Source: Gemmatimonas sp.
Lineage (GTDB): Bacteria > Gemmatimonadota > Gemmatimonadetes > Gemmatimonadales > Gemmatimonadaceae
Direction: 5' to 3'
DNA length: 64,000 bases
Assembly (NCBI GenBank): GCA_011390805.1
Contig: JAABRT010000001.1
Span: 124,001-188,000, forward strand
Below, in pieces: positions 55,638 through 64,000 of this stretch (the first letter of the stretch is position 1; the number at the start of each line of letters is the position of its first letter). A program made the position numbers and the translations under genes. Under the pieces are notes generated by a model. That model was given only the letters and a program-made list of their open reading frames with translations. It ran no database searches and was not told the origin of the DNA.

Positions 55638-55904
55638 ATGGAGACATCGCGGTTCACCGACAGCCAGATCGTCGCGATTCTGAAGGAGGCGGAGGGTGGG
55701 ACGCCCGTGCCCGAGCTCTGTCGCACGCACGGCATCAGTAACGCCACGTTTTATAAATGGCGCGCCAAGTTCGGGGGCATGGATGTGTCCTTGATGGCGC
55801 GCTTGAAGGAGCTGGAAGACGAAAATCGACGCATCAAGAAGTTGTACGTCGAGGCGCAGCTCAGCGCGGATCTCTTGCGCGAGGCGCTCGCAAAAAAATG
55901 GTAA
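55638..55904 (+). CDS. IS3-family transposase OrfA
   Basis: [50 protein letters not shown]. Confidence 0.92.
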
Positions 55905-56725
55905 GGCCAGCGCAGCGCCGCACGCTGGCCCGGCAAGCAGTCCAAACGGCGCGCACGACGATTCGGCACGCGTGTGCCACGTTTGCCATCAGCGAAACGT
56001 GTTACCGCTACCACGGCACGCAGACGCGCGACAACGCGGCGGTGGAGGACTGGCTGTTGCGGCTCACCACAGCGCATCGCTCGTGGGGCTTTGGGCTGTG
56101 CTTTCTGTATCTGCGGAACGTGAAGCAGTTCACGTGGAATCACAAACGGGTGTACCGCGTATATCGCGCGCTGGAGCTGAACCTGCGGATCAAACCAAAG
56201 CGTCGCCTGGTGCGCGAGCGACCGGAGCCCTTGGCGGTGCCCCGCGCGATCAACGACACGTGGTCCATGGACTTTATGCACGATCAACTCGCCGACGGGC
56301 GCACGTTTCGTCTCTTGAATGTGATTGATGATTTCAATCGCGAAGGCTTGGCGATGGAGGTCGATCTCTCGCTCCCGGCCGCACGCGTGGTGCGCGCCCT
56401 GGATCAACTCATCGCGTGGCGCGGCGCGCCGACACGGATTCGCTGTGACAACGGGCCGGAGTATGCAGGGCACACGTTGCACGCGTGGGCGAAGCGGCGT
56501 GGCATTCACATCGACTTCATTCAGCCGGGGAAGCCGCAGCAAAACGCGTACGTCGAACGCTACAACCGCACCGTGCGTTATGACTGGCTGTCGCAGTCAC
56601 TCTTTGATACCATTGCGGAAGTACAGGCGGCCGGCACCGCGTGGCTCTGGACGTACAACAACGAACGACCGAACATGGCACTGGGTGGCATCACCCCATC
56701 AATGAAACTTGCACTTGCTGCTTAA
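55898..56725 (+). CDS. IS3-family transposase OrfB (DDE integrase)
   Basis: [61 protein letters not shown]; -1 frame relative to orfA. Confidence 0.93.
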
Positions 56726-57615: not shown

Positions 57616-58110
57616 CTAGTTGTTCTCCTGTGACATGCTAATCAACTGTTCATTCGACATTGCTCCGACACGAACTCGCCGGATGCGTCCGTTTCGGTCG
57701 ATGGCCATCGCTACCGGTGTCCCAACTTGCCGAAGCCGACGTGCCAACTGACTGTTGGGCGTCGCTCCAAGGTACGAAATATCTGCGTTCTTCAAACTAC
57801 TTAAAATTGAATCAGGGAGTCGTCCCTGAGAAACCAGTTTTATTCGCGAGGCTCGATCTCTTTGCCGGACACTCATCAAGCTCGAAAGCTGTACCCTTGA
57901 CCAAGGGCAGTCGCCGACCATCATCAAAAGAAAAGGATGACTCGGGCCGGAATCCGGAGTACCGGAAGATTCGCTATCAAACAAATCTTTAATTTGGGAG
58001 CCGATGATGTCGCGGTGACGTGGATCAGAGTCGTTAGGCACTTTCCACCCAGTAAAGCATGCGCTGCCAACCGCAACAATCACGAGCGTTAACTTGACAG
58101 GCCATCTCAT
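57616..58110 (-). CDS. Thioredoxin-fold protein with CPWS motif
   Basis: N-terminal TM; FLLMMVGDCPWSRVQLSSL; VGTPVAMAIDRNGRI (cis-Pro); ATGA overlap with upstream gene. Confidence 0.6.
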   Translation of the reverse strand: MRWPVKLTLVIVAVGSACFTGWKVPNDSDPRHRDIIGSQIKDLFDSESSGTPDSGPSHPFLLMMVGDCPWSRVQLSSLMSVRQRDRASRIKLVSQGRLPDSILSSLKNADISYLGATPNSQLARRLRQVGTPVAMAIDRNGRIRRVRVGAMSNEQLISMSQENN

Positions 58111-59201
58111 TTCTGCCTCTTAAATGCACCATCGCCCACTGCGAAGACGCGCAGCTGCGGCTCCGGGTTGTTGAAGCCCACGGCGAGCTGTTGTCCGTCA
58201 GCACTGAGTGCGAGAGCGCTGACCGACTGCGGCATATTGAGGCGTGCAGTGCGCGCAGGATCGCGAAGATCATAGAGCACCACTTGCCGCGTGGAATCGC
58301 CAACGAACTCGCCGAGACAACCGCAGTAGGCAATCGCGAGCGTGTGACCACGCAAACTCACGCCGCGGGAGGCGATGTCTGATTGATCGACATCGAACCC
58401 AGGTCCAATGGAACCGTCGCTGCGCCGCGGCACACCAACTGTGCCAATGCTCACCTCGTGTAAAAGCTCGCCAGTTGAGTCCATCACCAGCGCTACTGGT
58501 GCAAACAGAAACGAAAGCGCGATGCGCGACGTTTGCTCGTCGACGGAAAATTGGTGCCAGTTCGCATCAAACACATATGCGGGGTCCACATCGGCTCGTC
58601 GGTTCGGACCTTCCAGCATGACACGTTGTGGCTGACGCGGATCTGCAGGCACGAACAGCACCGTGGTGTCTCCGAACTGTCCGGTAACTAGCGTGCCGGC
58701 GCCGGACAGCAACGCACCCTCAGGAGGAAGCACGCCTGGCGCTCGCGCGACAGGCAGGCTAACGAACTGCGATTGCGTGGGCTGACGCACGTCCTTCACC
58801 AACATGACCCGTCGTTGGTTGGGCTCAAAGAGCACCAACTCCCCCGCTCGCGTTCGCCACATGGCGGTTGGATGTCGCACCTCGCCTGGCCCATCGCCCG
58901 CCCGCACACCTTGTGCAATCACACTGTCGCGCACGATATCCACGAGCGTGACAAACGGTTCTCCCCGACTGTCCAGCACGGCAATGGTTGAGTCTGACGT
59001 CCATGTCAGAGCACTGATCCCCGCAAGCGCCGGCAGTGCGATGGGCTGCGCCATCGGCTCTACAACGGATGAAGCATCTCGATCAGGCGTACAGGCCGAC
59101 AGTTGGATCAATGCGAGCAACAGCCATTTGCTGTACTTGCTGCCCCTCGCCGAGCGGCAACCAGTACAGAATCCGCTCGGCGAAAAGAAAGGGCTTTTCA
59201 T
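58107..59201 (-). CDS. 6-bladed beta-propeller lipoprotein
   Basis: Lipobox ALIQLSAC; VRAGDGPGEVRHPTAMWRT propeller signature; ATGA overlap with upstream peptide gene. Confidence 0.7.
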   Translation of the reverse strand: MKSPFFSPSGFCTGCRSARGSKYSKWLLLALIQLSACTPDRDASSVVEPMAQPIALPALAGISALTWTSDSTIAVLDSRGEPFVTLVDIVRDSVIAQGVRAGDGPGEVRHPTAMWRTRAGELVLFEPNQRRVMLVKDVRQPTQSQFVSLPVARAPGVLPPEGALLSGAGTLVTGQFGDTTVLFVPADPRQPQRVMLEGPNRRADVDPAYVFDANWHQFSVDEQTSRIALSFLFAPVALVMDSTGELLHEVSIGTVGVPRRSDGSIGPGFDVDQSDIASRGVSLRGHTLAIAYCGCLGEFVGDSTRQVVLYDLRDPARTARLNMPQSVSALALSADGQQLAVGFNNPEPQLRVFAVGDGAFKRQK

Positions 59202-59419
59202 GATTCGTCAACAAACTTCCATTTGTGATTCGAAAGAAAGCACGGGACGCTGCTAGGATCGAGCGGGAGCCCAGTGTCGCAATCGTAGTAACATTTTGCC
59301 TCGGACACCATGCAGGCGTACCCCACACCGGCGAAGGCTGGCTCCTTTACTGAACGGCCCACGAACAATCCGCCGACAATCACTGTAGCAATGGCAACTC
59401 GTTCCAAGTTCTTACGCAT
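59198..59419 (-). CDS. Small secreted 4-Cys peptide precursor
   Basis: MRKNLERVAIATVIVGGLFVGRSVKEPAFA|GVGYACMVSEAKCYYDCDTGLPLDPSSVPCFLSNHKWKFVDES; signal-peptide-like leader; coupled to propeller gene. Confidence 0.6.
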   Translation of the reverse strand: MRKNLERVAIATVIVGGLFVGRSVKEPAFAGVGYACMVSEAKCYYDCDTGLPLDPSSVPCFLSNHKWKFVDES

Positions 59420-60084
59420 ACCTACCTCCGGGAAAGTTGTCACGCAGCGCATCGCTGGTGACTCAGCTGACGTGCCGAATCACGTGCGCAACAGACGGTA
59501 ATACGGACTTGAAGCGATCACCGTATCATCATCGGACAAATTCAAGCGCTGCCGCAAAACTTTGACCGAATACTACATGCTCATCTGCAAGTCATCTGCG
59601 TAATGCAGAACTCTTCCGCATTCGGCTTAGCAGATGCGTTCTGCGCATTCCAACGCTGATCTCGTTGCGGAGCAAAGCAAAGAGCCATGTGCTAGCGAAA
59701 CCTCACAAACAATCTACGTTGTTCGCTAGTTGACTGGCTCGCTTGCCACTCGGAGTTGGTTATTGCAACCCCTACTTAATCTTCCCTCGCATTCGCACAC
59801 GTGGCGTGTCAGCCGACTGCGCCGAGCGCAGACCAACGCGCTCAGCTCACGCGCATCGTGCGGCAAGCGCATCTTGTGCGCATGTTGCTCAAGGCGACCG
59901 AGCAGCATCCGCTCACCATCCAGATCGCCGGCACAGTCGAGCCGCGACGCGAATCGTGGCTAGCGGTACTGAGGTCGATGCACCCCAGTTGGCGCGAGGT
60001 CAGGCGGCATCGACCGAATCATGGCGAGCGTGGCTGCATGCAGCCACTCAGGCGGCGCGATTGCAACTCCCGTGGCATCACACC

Positions 60085-60970
60085 ATGCGGATCTCTTGCG
60101 CGAGGCGCTCGCAAAAAATGGTAAGGCCAGCGCAGCGCCGCACGCTGGCCCGGCAGGCAGTGCAAACGGCGCGCACCACGATTCGGCATGCGTGTACCAC
60201 GTTTGCCATCAGCGAAACGTGTTACCGCTACCACGGCGCGCAGACGCGCGAGAACGCGGCGGTGGAGGACTGGCTGTTGCGGCTCACCACAGCGCATCGC
60301 TCGAGGGGCTTTGGGCTGTGCTTTCTGTATCTGCGGAATGTGAAGCAGTTCACGTGGAATCACAAACGGGTGTACCGCGTATATCGCGCGCTGGAACTGA
60401 ACCTGCGGATCAAACCAAAGCGTCGCCTGGTGCGCGAGCAACCGGGCCCTTGGCGGTGCCCCGCGCGATCAATGACACGTGGTCCATGGACTTTATGCAC
60501 GATCAACTCGCCGACGGGCGCACGTTTCGTCTCCTGAATGTGAATGATGATTTCCATCGCGAAGGCTTGGACTGTGAAAGTCGATCTCTCGCTGCCGGCC
60601 GCACCTGTGGTGCGCGCCCTGGATCAACTCGTCGCATGGCGCGGCGCGCCGACACGGATTCGCTGTGACAACGGGCCGGAGTATGCAGGGCCCACGTTGC
60701 ACGCGTGGGCGAAGCGGCGTGGCATTCACATCGACTTCATTCAGCCGGGGAAGCCGCAGCAAAACGCGTACGTCGAACGCTACAACCGCACCGTGCGTGT
60801 ATGACTGGCGGTCGCAGTCTCTCTTCGATACCATTGCGGGAGTACAGGCAGCCGGTACCGCGTGGCTCTGGACGTACAACAACGAACGACCGAACATGGC
60901 ACGGGGTGGCATCACCCCATCAATGACGCTTGCACTGGCTGCTTACTCCACGATTGGCGCCCGTTTATAC
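60085..60970 (+). pseudogene. Truncated, frameshifted second copy of the IS3-family transposase
   Basis: Homologous to 55866-56750 with truncation at both ends, A6 instead of A7, and indels. Confidence 0.85.
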
Positions 60971-61450: not shown

Positions 61451-61939
61451 TCCGCTGTCAAGGCTTGTGATCGCACACGCGCGGATAGCGGCGTGTCGGT
61501 GACACGTCGGGACATTGAGCACGGCTGTTGCGCTGGCCATCCCCGCGATGGTCTTCCACGAGACACGAGTCCCTTGCTCTCCGTAGTGAAACACACAGAG
61601 TACACGTGCGGTGGAGTGTCCTGTTCTTCACGTAGCATAAGGTCCCTGTTGAAGATTCGAACATTATCTACGAGGTTGCAAGCACCTCGACGGTCGGATT
61701 GAGCGGAATCTTTCCTCGCTTGCGCTCAGCCAGATGATCTGCGGCACAGTAGGATGAATTACGTCGCACACCTGTCGCATGATCGCTCTTGCGGATGCTC
61801 GGCAGCCGACATACAGTATGCCGCTGAGTCTGGCGGGTATTTGGCCACGGTTTGCGGGAGCCTGTAGTGTCTCGCAGCTGATAGTACCAAAACCACGACT
61901 GGCGTGGACTCTGACGATCTAAATGGAGCGAGTGACTGC

Positions 61940-62626
61940 ATGCCGAACGGGTCGCAGAGGACAACAAATGTGCTGCTGGGCATGACGGTGATTTGTGTTG
62001 TCACCATGACAGCACTTTCCCTTGCGCAGTTCCTACGCTCTCCGAGAGCCGGAAGCCAAAACAAGGGTCCGGAGTTTGTGGAATCAGCCAATGCGGCCGC
62101 ACTCGCAGATTTCGGGCATCGCGTCGGGTCCAACAGCGCGACTGTCGTAATAACCGTGTTTAGCGACTTTCAATGCCCGGCGTGTGCAGCATTCGCCAAC
62201 AGAACCTTGCCCGCGCTGCGTGAGAAATATCCAGACAAGTTCGTGCTGAACTTTCGCCATTGGCCGCTTGAGCAACACCCTCATGCGTTTGCGGCGGCTA
62301 CCGCAGCCGAGTGTGCAGCCTCACAAAACCGCTTCGAGGCGTTTCACGATCTGCTGTTTGCACAGCAATCTCGGATAGGGCAGGAGCCTTTTCGCGTGAT
62401 GGCAAGCGACGCAGGCGTTCAGGATTTGGACGCTTTCGAGCGTTGCTTGGTGGATGAGTTAGCAGCGAGCGTTGTCCGGCGCGACTCCGATGCAATTCAA
62501 CCGTTTGAGCCGTCTGGGACGCCTACGATCGTGGTTGGCAGTACGCTCATCAGAGGCGGCGCTTCGCTCGCTCTGCTCGATTCTTTGCTTGCAAACTCGC
62601 TAAAGTTGTTGCCGGGTCGCGACTAG
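61940..62626 (+). CDS. DsbA-like thiol:disulfide oxidoreductase
   Basis: TM; FSDFQCPACAAFANRTLPALREKYPDKFVLNFRHWPL; SGTPTIVVGSTLIRG cis-Pro region. Confidence 0.88.
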   Translation: MPNGSQRTTNVLLGMTVICVVTMTALSLAQFLRSPRAGSQNKGPEFVESANAAALADFGHRVGSNSATVVITVFSDFQCPACAAFANRTLPALREKYPDKFVLNFRHWPLEQHPHAFAAATAAECAASQNRFEAFHDLLFAQQSRIGQEPFRVMASDAGVQDLDAFERCLVDELAASVVRRDSDAIQPFEPSGTPTIVVGSTLIRGGASLALLDSLLANSLKLLPGRD

Positions 62627-62674
62627 CATATGCTCGTGTTGTGTGAGAATTGGTGCCTTTCGTTTGGGTTTTCC

Positions 62675-63916
62675 ATGCGTCCAGTTCGGGCTGCAGTTGC
62701 GTGCGGTCTGCTCTCGTTGTCGTCTTGTGACAACGCCCCCGAAAACCTGCCCTACTCGACTGTCGCAGCAAATGAAGCCTCCTTGCAACTGATCGTGGAG
62801 ATCGGTAGTTCTTCACCTGAGTCTGACAACAGTTCATTTGGCGTTATTCGCGACGTCTTGTTGACGACGCAGAATCGAGTTTGGGTGTCGGATGCATCAG
62901 AGAGCGGGGCGGATCCGAGATTGCGACTGTTCGATTCGACCGGCTCGTTCCTTCGAGAAGTGGCAACACGCGGCGGCGGGCCGGGTGAGTTCACCCGCGT
63001 GGGTGCGCTGGCGGAGTTTCCCAACGGCAATGTGGCCTATCGGGACGATGGTGCGCCAACGCGAGTGCTCATTTTTAGCCCCGATGGCGATTTGCTGGAT
63101 CATTGGCCCAAGGCAGAGCAGTCTGGGTGGCCGCGTGACATGCGATTCGTTGGAAACTCGCCGTTTGCACTCATGATCGATTCGAGTTCGCGCGTCTGGT
63201 TGCCCTTCCGCGGGGGACGACCAGGCGACAACGTGCGCGAAACCGGTATTCTCCGCGTCACCGCCGCCGGGGATGTGTTGGACGTAGTGGAGTGGCCTGC
63301 CTTCCCTGTATTGGACAAACCCACCGAAATGATTGAAGGCACGAGCCGCGATGGTCGGGCGCACTTTAGCATTGCGGTTCCATACCAGCCCTCTGTCGTA
63401 CGCACATGGAGCCCGCTCGGCGAGTTCGCAGTTGCGCGCTCCGATCGATACCACGTCGAGCTGGGCATTCCAGCGCTTACCGAAGGCAGCAACGCCGATT
63501 CCACCGATCGCCGCAGTGTAGAGCGACAGCGCGCGCGTGTGCCGGTCTCCGAGGATGAAAGGCGTGCGGTTCGGCAGCAGCTGCAGGATGTAGTCGACGG
63601 CTGGGGGGCGAATGTTCGCAGCTCCTCCGTGCCGAAGAGCGTTCCCGACTACAAACCCCCTCTGCGCGATCTCTCCTTCTCGGAGGATGGTCGGCTGATG
63701 GTAAAGGTGTCGGTTCCGTCGACCTACACCGATGAGGGGTGGACCGAGCCCGATGTATTCGACGTGTTTGACAGAACAGGAAGCCATCTCGGCGAGATGC
63801 AGATCCCTCCGGGCAGTCAAAGGTTGCGCATGCGCAATCGCCGAGTATGGGGAGCGTTCACCACTGCCGACGACGCGCAAGTAGTGAGGGTTTTTGAGCT
63901 GCAGTTAGTTCGGTAG
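62675..63916 (+). CDS. 6-bladed beta-propeller protein, lipoprotein-like
   Basis: LSLSSCDN lipobox-like; LREVATRGGGPGEFTRVGALAEFPNGNVAYRDD; propeller repeats. Confidence 0.7.
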   Translation: MRPVRAAVACGLLSLSSCDNAPENLPYSTVAANEASLQLIVEIGSSSPESDNSSFGVIRDVLLTTQNRVWVSDASESGADPRLRLFDSTGSFLREVATRGGGPGEFTRVGALAEFPNGNVAYRDDGAPTRVLIFSPDGDLLDHWPKAEQSGWPRDMRFVGNSPFALMIDSSSRVWLPFRGGRPGDNVRETGILRVTAAGDVLDVVEWPAFPVLDKPTEMIEGTSRDGRAHFSIAVPYQPSVVRTWSPLGEFAVARSDRYHVELGIPALTEGSNADSTDRRSVERQRARVPVSEDERRAVRQQLQDVVDGWGANVRSSSVPKSVPDYKPPLRDLSFSEDGRLMVKVSVPSTYTDEGWTEPDVFDVFDRTGSHLGEMQIPPGSQRLRMRNRRVWGAFTTADDAQVVRVFELQLVR

Positions 63917-64000
63917 TAGGAGTCAGAAATGGACATACCGGTCGCTACAAAGAACACCAAACCTTATCAGGTGAGGAGCAAATGGCCAGTGAAAAACAAA

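Follow-up and report, generated by a model that had tools for sequence, protein, structure and literature searches.

Within the window, by which we mean the whole 64,000-nucleotide stretch of Gemmatimonas sp. DNA that was analysed, three overlapping minus-strand genes lie between two insertion-sequence copies, with a second set of genes beside them. The features are as follows.

55893..56724, plus strand: IS3-type transposase region, the left of two direct copies on either side of the trio
57616..58110, minus strand: predicted ResA/TlpA-type thioredoxin-fold protein, membrane-anchored, 164 aa, active site CPWS
58107..58110, minus strand: ATGA stop/start overlap, propeller to thioredoxin-fold gene
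58107..59201, minus strand: NHL/TolB-like propeller lipoprotein, 364 aa, lipobox LSAC, YCGC motif (C293, C295)
59198..59201, minus strand: ATGA stop/start overlap, peptide to propeller
59198..59419, minus strand: exported Cys-rich prepeptide, 73 aa, leader 1–30 ending AFA, 43-aa core with four Cys
60113..60945, plus strand: IS3-type transposase region, right direct copy, degraded frame
61904..62626, plus strand: neighbouring second set, DsbA-like protein (CPAC; PF13462, 1.3e-22)
62630..63916, plus strand: neighbouring second set, 6-bladed propeller lipoprotein

The original prediction was that the trio is joined by two ATGA overlaps, and both are real, at exactly the coordinates it gave. For the peptide gene, we favour the ATG at 59419 over an upstream in-frame ATG at 59452, because GGAGG (ccGGAGGtaggtATG) precedes the former. 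Translation yields the 73-aa precursor that had been described, with a leader ending in AFA (SVKEPAFA at greater length), a 43-aa remainder and four cysteines spaced C-x6-C-x3-C-x12-C. The codon statistics of 59198–59419, proposed at the outset as a check, read as coding, but weakly (+5 nats over 84 codons), and the peptide matches no Pfam or NCBIfam family, with 0 Pfam families at E ≤ 1. Weak codon bias and the lack of a family match would both suit a chance reading frame that is no gene. Against this stand the Shine-Dalgarno site and the ATGA coupling, a homologue that occupies the same position in another genome (G027, see below) and the locus layout shared by relatives. Since the Shine-Dalgarno site, the coupling and the G027 homologue coincide, we take the frame to be coding and regard a chance ORF as highly improbable.

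Between the IS copies, only the propeller and thioredoxin-fold genes accompany the peptide, and no modifying enzyme, as would be expected of a RiPP locus, lies beside the precursor. The two direct copies are 93–97% identical and 4.22 kb apart, forming composite-transposon-like flanks. Because of these flanks, and because the trio was found only here among the same-genus genomes sampled, the trio may be mobile.

The neighbouring set continues with an 11-Cys exported ORF that begins 66 bp after the propeller, at 63982, and crosses the window end (L028:15983-16303). Across the same genome, a PF17170 search returned 22 propellers, most of them without such a peptide, and a crude test for enrichment of Cys-rich ORFs at all PF17170 propellers of this genome and two relatives was not significant. 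The closest paralogous propellers are C64, which has neither peptide nor thioredoxin gene, and C3, which has no thioredoxin gene downstream and whose upstream side is cut by a contig end. Contig C82 carries the order peptide/thioredoxin-like (CDGN)/propeller/peptide, with an orthologous set in G156. Orthologous sets of this order, encoding Cys-rich proteins of ∼130 aa, were seen in two genomes of the genus (L058:4048-6535 and L130:1981-4524). On C129 there are a DsbA gene, a pair of peptides, a 189-aa protein devoid of Cys, which looks like a degenerate thioredoxin (no Pfam match), and a propeller. Neither NVEALA nor MauE scored above cut-off in this genome, MauE giving a sub-threshold hit only.

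Predicted folds of the propeller and thioredoxin-fold proteins

The second gene had been read as a six-bladed-propeller-type lipoprotein, and both its lipobox (LSAC) and its modelled fold support that assignment. The AlphaFold model (pTM 0.71, with residues 152–213 weak) has as its closest PDB folds six-bladed NHL propellers, e.g. TRIM2, Thin and Brat. The sequence is too diverged to score against PF15869 (TolB_like), with no match at E ≤ 1, and the propeller of G027 gives no score either; 6 of the 8 related Gemmatimonadota propellers in our alignment match this family, the best at 1.1e-29. When a profile of the window and G027 propellers was compared with a profile of PF15869 members, the two aligned over 287 columns (99.6%, E = 4.7e-24), and by this comparison the window propeller is homologous to PF15869 members. 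The CxC at residues 293–295 is conserved as YCGC or NCLC (FCGC in L168), most relatives having FSG there, and is a possible redox contact.

The model of the third product (pLDDT 66) shows the strand and helix order of thioredoxin, with CPWS (Cys68) opening the first core helix and GTPVA preceding a beta-hairpin. Its best PDB folds are of the ResA/CcmG/DsbE type, with ResA at the top (E 6e-6 and weaker), and the sequence matches, weak as they are, agree with a thioredoxin fold. A TlpA/ResA-type thioredoxin fold is thus predicted by the model. The protein lacks a CxxC active site, having CPWS where G027 has CQYC. Its original description as single-thiol applies to the active site and not to the whole protein, since C18 lies in the membrane segment; that segment is present as described, though anchoring as a lipoprotein through VGSAC is possible instead of transmembrane anchoring. 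Active sites vary across loci, from CPWS in the window and CQYC in G027 to CPFC, CPAC or CPVC in DsbA-like partners and CDGN on C82, and in some Gemmatimonadota the partner thioredoxin domain often lacks one or both active-site cysteines.

Recurrence in Gemmatimonadota and other phyla

When 201 genomes of the order were searched with the propeller, a single strong relative turned up beyond the window's own genome, in G027 (3e-29), which belongs to another family of the order. An independent peptide search hit the same place (E = 0.0075), 105 bp before the propeller match. G027 carries a peptide, a propeller and a thioredoxin-fold gene (CQYC) in the window's order, its peptide (L017:7551-7742) having 63 aa and four Cys (...DKCYSDC...DCFMANWK). 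Direct peptide search of 288 genomes of the order returned the window and G027 as the only clear members; those hits at E = 0.01–1 that were inspected were mostly frames inside other genes. A first scan of named genomes, run with the propeller group of the window, brought up no relatives, and a profile of window/G027-type propellers reached further members within the phylum, adjoined by exported Cys-rich small ORFs and DsbA-like genes. The arrangements include:

G296 (another family of the class): peptide/propeller/DsbA, same order as the window
G234: DsbA/peptide/propeller/propeller
G363: propeller/peptide
G360: peptide/propeller

By reading the DNA, we also observed that G180 retains no more than a broken piece of a G234-like peptide, where an apparent deletion (L169:5350-5780) joins the DsbA gene region, at its end, to the last part of a peptide gene.

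PF15869 propellers were present in 17 of 249 Gemmatimonadota genomes. With the duplicate and tandem entries (L288 and L287) each counted once, these gave 18 distinct loci. At 14 of them an exported Cys-rich ORF lies next to the propeller, in most cases overlapping its start or abutting it. At 76 named loci drawn from a genome-wide scan, same-strand exported Cys-rich ORFs occurred at 0.207/kb within 450 bp of the propeller versus 0.038/kb elsewhere (odds ratio 5.6, Fisher p = 4e-6). Small ORFs were judged by inspection after a codon-bias filter had discarded genuine peptides. Conservation in relatives, on which the original prediction was staked, is found at two levels: the whole trio keeps its order in G027, and a Cys-peptide ORF recurs beside homologous propellers through Gemmatimonadota. 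Common descent of the peptides themselves has no support, because comparison of the window/G027 peptide profile with that of the other Gemmatimonadota peptides found no similarity.

In several Gemmatimonadota, the thioredoxin domain forms the tail of an anti-sigma-like protein encoded next to an ECF sigma factor. The genes for the ECF sigma factor and the zf-HC2/TPR/thioredoxin-tail protein lie at:

L174:807-3523
L175:871-3644
L177:832-3593
L176:5121-7810

In L174, L175 and L177 they are followed by the peptide and the propeller, and in L176 the same genes are divergent. The anti-sigma-like protein is 711–724 aa long, with a zf-HC2 domain that falls below cut-off in L174 and L176 and is undetected in L175. 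Its C-terminal AhpC-TSA/thioredoxin domain is recognised by Pfam in L174, L175 and L176 and by eye in L177, and the ECF sigma factor by Pfam in L174 and by similarity in L175–L177. The thioredoxin site is CGPS, CAPS or lost, leaving one Cys or none. At L275, one of the G301-type loci, the upstream gene encodes a similar protein, again judged by eye. This sigma/anti-sigma link is seen in relatives and not in the window.

Beyond the phylum, the window's order of 4-Cys peptide, propeller and thioredoxin gene recurs in Aminicenantes/Acidobacteriota at L197, L219 and L239, and in Kryptonium L210 a 4-Cys peptide and a propeller are immediately preceded by a MauE gene (PF07291, 2e-18). Bacteroidota loci L182 and L183 encode true NVEALA peptides (PF14055, 7.5e-14 and 4.7e-7) directly upstream of propellers, that of L182 matching PF15869 at 6.6e-29. 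The gut Bacteroidota examined carry NVEALA peptides and their propellers in large numbers; most of the 20 NVEALA loci taken from six genomes adjoin a 330–430-aa ORF, often recognisable as a propeller, and several also have a CxxC gene. The analogy to NVEALA loci drawn in the original prediction holds for layout and propeller, since the window, like L182 and L183, has a gene for an exported small precursor immediately before that of a TolB-like/6-bladed propeller lipoprotein. It does not extend to the peptide: the window peptide does not match the PF14055 profile, a genome search gave no match there either, and the end of its leader has no NVEALA-like motif. With profile and motif both unmatched, the window trio is not a member of NVEALA itself. 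Comparison of peptide profiles across phyla (16% probability, E = 0.0016) hints at peptide homology.

The same pairing raises the question of whether the small ORF could be a subunit, structural or accessory, of the propeller lipoprotein: a folding partner that caps the propeller and is confined to that complex. Translational coupling and one-to-one pairing are consistent with this, but at L182, L189, C129 and C82 the propeller is accompanied by two peptides that differ from each other, and the close paralogous propeller C64 has none, and we consider a subunit role unlikely.

A proposed role at the cell envelope

We propose that the trio is a self-contained exported-peptide module, acting most likely at the cell surface, in signalling by peptides or in regulated antagonism, a reading that we hold with about even confidence. 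The small precursor would be exported by Sec and then cut near AFA, and its ∼43-aa core would fold through two disulfides. The propeller lipoprotein, translated from the same message, would be the cognate binding partner of the peptide at the envelope, as the almost obligatory pairing and the translational coupling suggest. The thioredoxin-fold protein would handle the peptide's thiols, and a site with one Cys or none, such as CPWS here, would more likely trap, hold or sense the peptide than carry out multiple-turnover oxidation. The main clue towards sensing is the anti-sigma-fused thioredoxin with its reduced site: because this domain tails a zf-HC2 anti-sigma/TPR protein accompanied by an ECF sigma factor, we favour peptide signalling or regulated antagonism over a metabolic enzyme. 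Against a signalling module, the DsbA-like partners with intact CPxC at several loci fit plain oxidation better than sensing.

Tandem peptides in L182 and L221 have leaders that are 90–95% identical and cores that are 19–44% identical, as in precursor families with a variable product, and no such contrast occurs in the peptide pairs of L268 or C129. Together with the several sets per genome, this leader/core contrast fits cognate recognition better than a metabolic enzyme. Conserved leaders with variable cores, several sets per genome, strict pairing with one lipoprotein and flanking IS copies would also fit a secreted antagonistic, bacteriocin-like disulfide peptide, for which the propeller lipoprotein would serve in self-protection or display and the thioredoxin-fold protein would make the disulfides. 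Candidate RiPP families of Streptomyces with mauE/mauD, reported by decRiPPter (PMC7794033), point the same way. The trio, however, has no dedicated exporter, protease or modifying enzyme. Nor are propellers known to act as immunity proteins, and this explanation is possible but doubtful.

A metabolic alternative is a methylamine-dehydrogenase-like enzyme, in which the peptide would serve as the small subunit, for catalysis or electron transfer, and the propeller as the large one, while disulfide maturation would fall to the thioredoxin-fold protein, with MauE at some loci, as in the mau operon. Although the layout is parallel and MauE directly precedes the 4-Cys peptide and propeller in Kryptonium, no peptide or propeller tested matches MauA or MauB in Pfam, the modelled propeller resembles six-bladed NHL proteins, the core sequences are too variable for a fixed cofactor site, and the window has no MauE, the sub-threshold hit lying elsewhere in the genome. 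Such an enzyme is improbable here, and we place peptide-based signalling or regulated interaction at the envelope at the top, followed by an antagonistic peptide, with a mau-like enzyme and a propeller subunit below them.

The recurrence of the trio across several phyla points to a widespread, unexplained peptide system whose layout is related to that of NVEALA loci. More speculatively, Gemmatimonadota, Bacteroidota, Acidobacteriota/Aminicenantes and related phyla could share a peptide-sensing system in which an exported peptide with disulfides is joined by a propeller acting as receptor and by a lone-thiol thioredoxin trap, which, where anti-sigma-fused, would signal to an ECF sigma factor.

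Comparison with known systems

The closest layout is that of NVEALA/PF15869 (BF3164/TolB_like) loci, which share with the window a small exported precursor with a Cys-bearing tail and an adjacent 6-bladed propeller lipoprotein, often together with a thioredoxin-fold gene and in several copies per genome. Unlike these, the window peptide lacks the NVEALA motif and a PF14055 match, and the window propeller has no direct PF15869 score, being linked through profiles. NVEALA and TolB_like are named Pfam families for which our literature search found no function: it returned no paper naming NVEALA, met BF3164 in a single paper and only in passing, and found nothing on Gemmatimonadota propeller lipoproteins or on the combination of MauE, propeller, thioredoxin and Bacteroidetes. 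A peptide–propeller–thioredoxin unit outside Bacteroidota and its anti-sigma-fused version are first strong hints to the parts list, and the function of NVEALA-type loci becomes testable in culturable Gemmatimonadota or Bacteroides.

Among better-known redox systems, the ResA/TlpA/CcmG thiol-disulfide oxidoreductases share with the third gene product its predicted fold and its anchoring in the membrane; that product differs in having CPWS for CxxC and in being tied to one peptide–propeller pair. The mau operon (MauA/B/D/E) likewise combines a small Cys-rich exported protein, a propeller and a thioredoxin-fold maturation protein, and shares MauE with Kryptonium L210; trio-type loci differ from it in having no MauA or MauB homology, an NHL-type propeller and no cofactor-forming genes. 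The nearest published idea is that of the MauE/MauD-linked families found by decRiPPter in Streptomyces, which, like the trio, pair a Cys-rich small precursor with mau-type redox genes and which are actinobacterial, have precursors with at least 8 Cys and, in the sections of that paper drawn on here, come with no mention of a propeller (PMC7794033).
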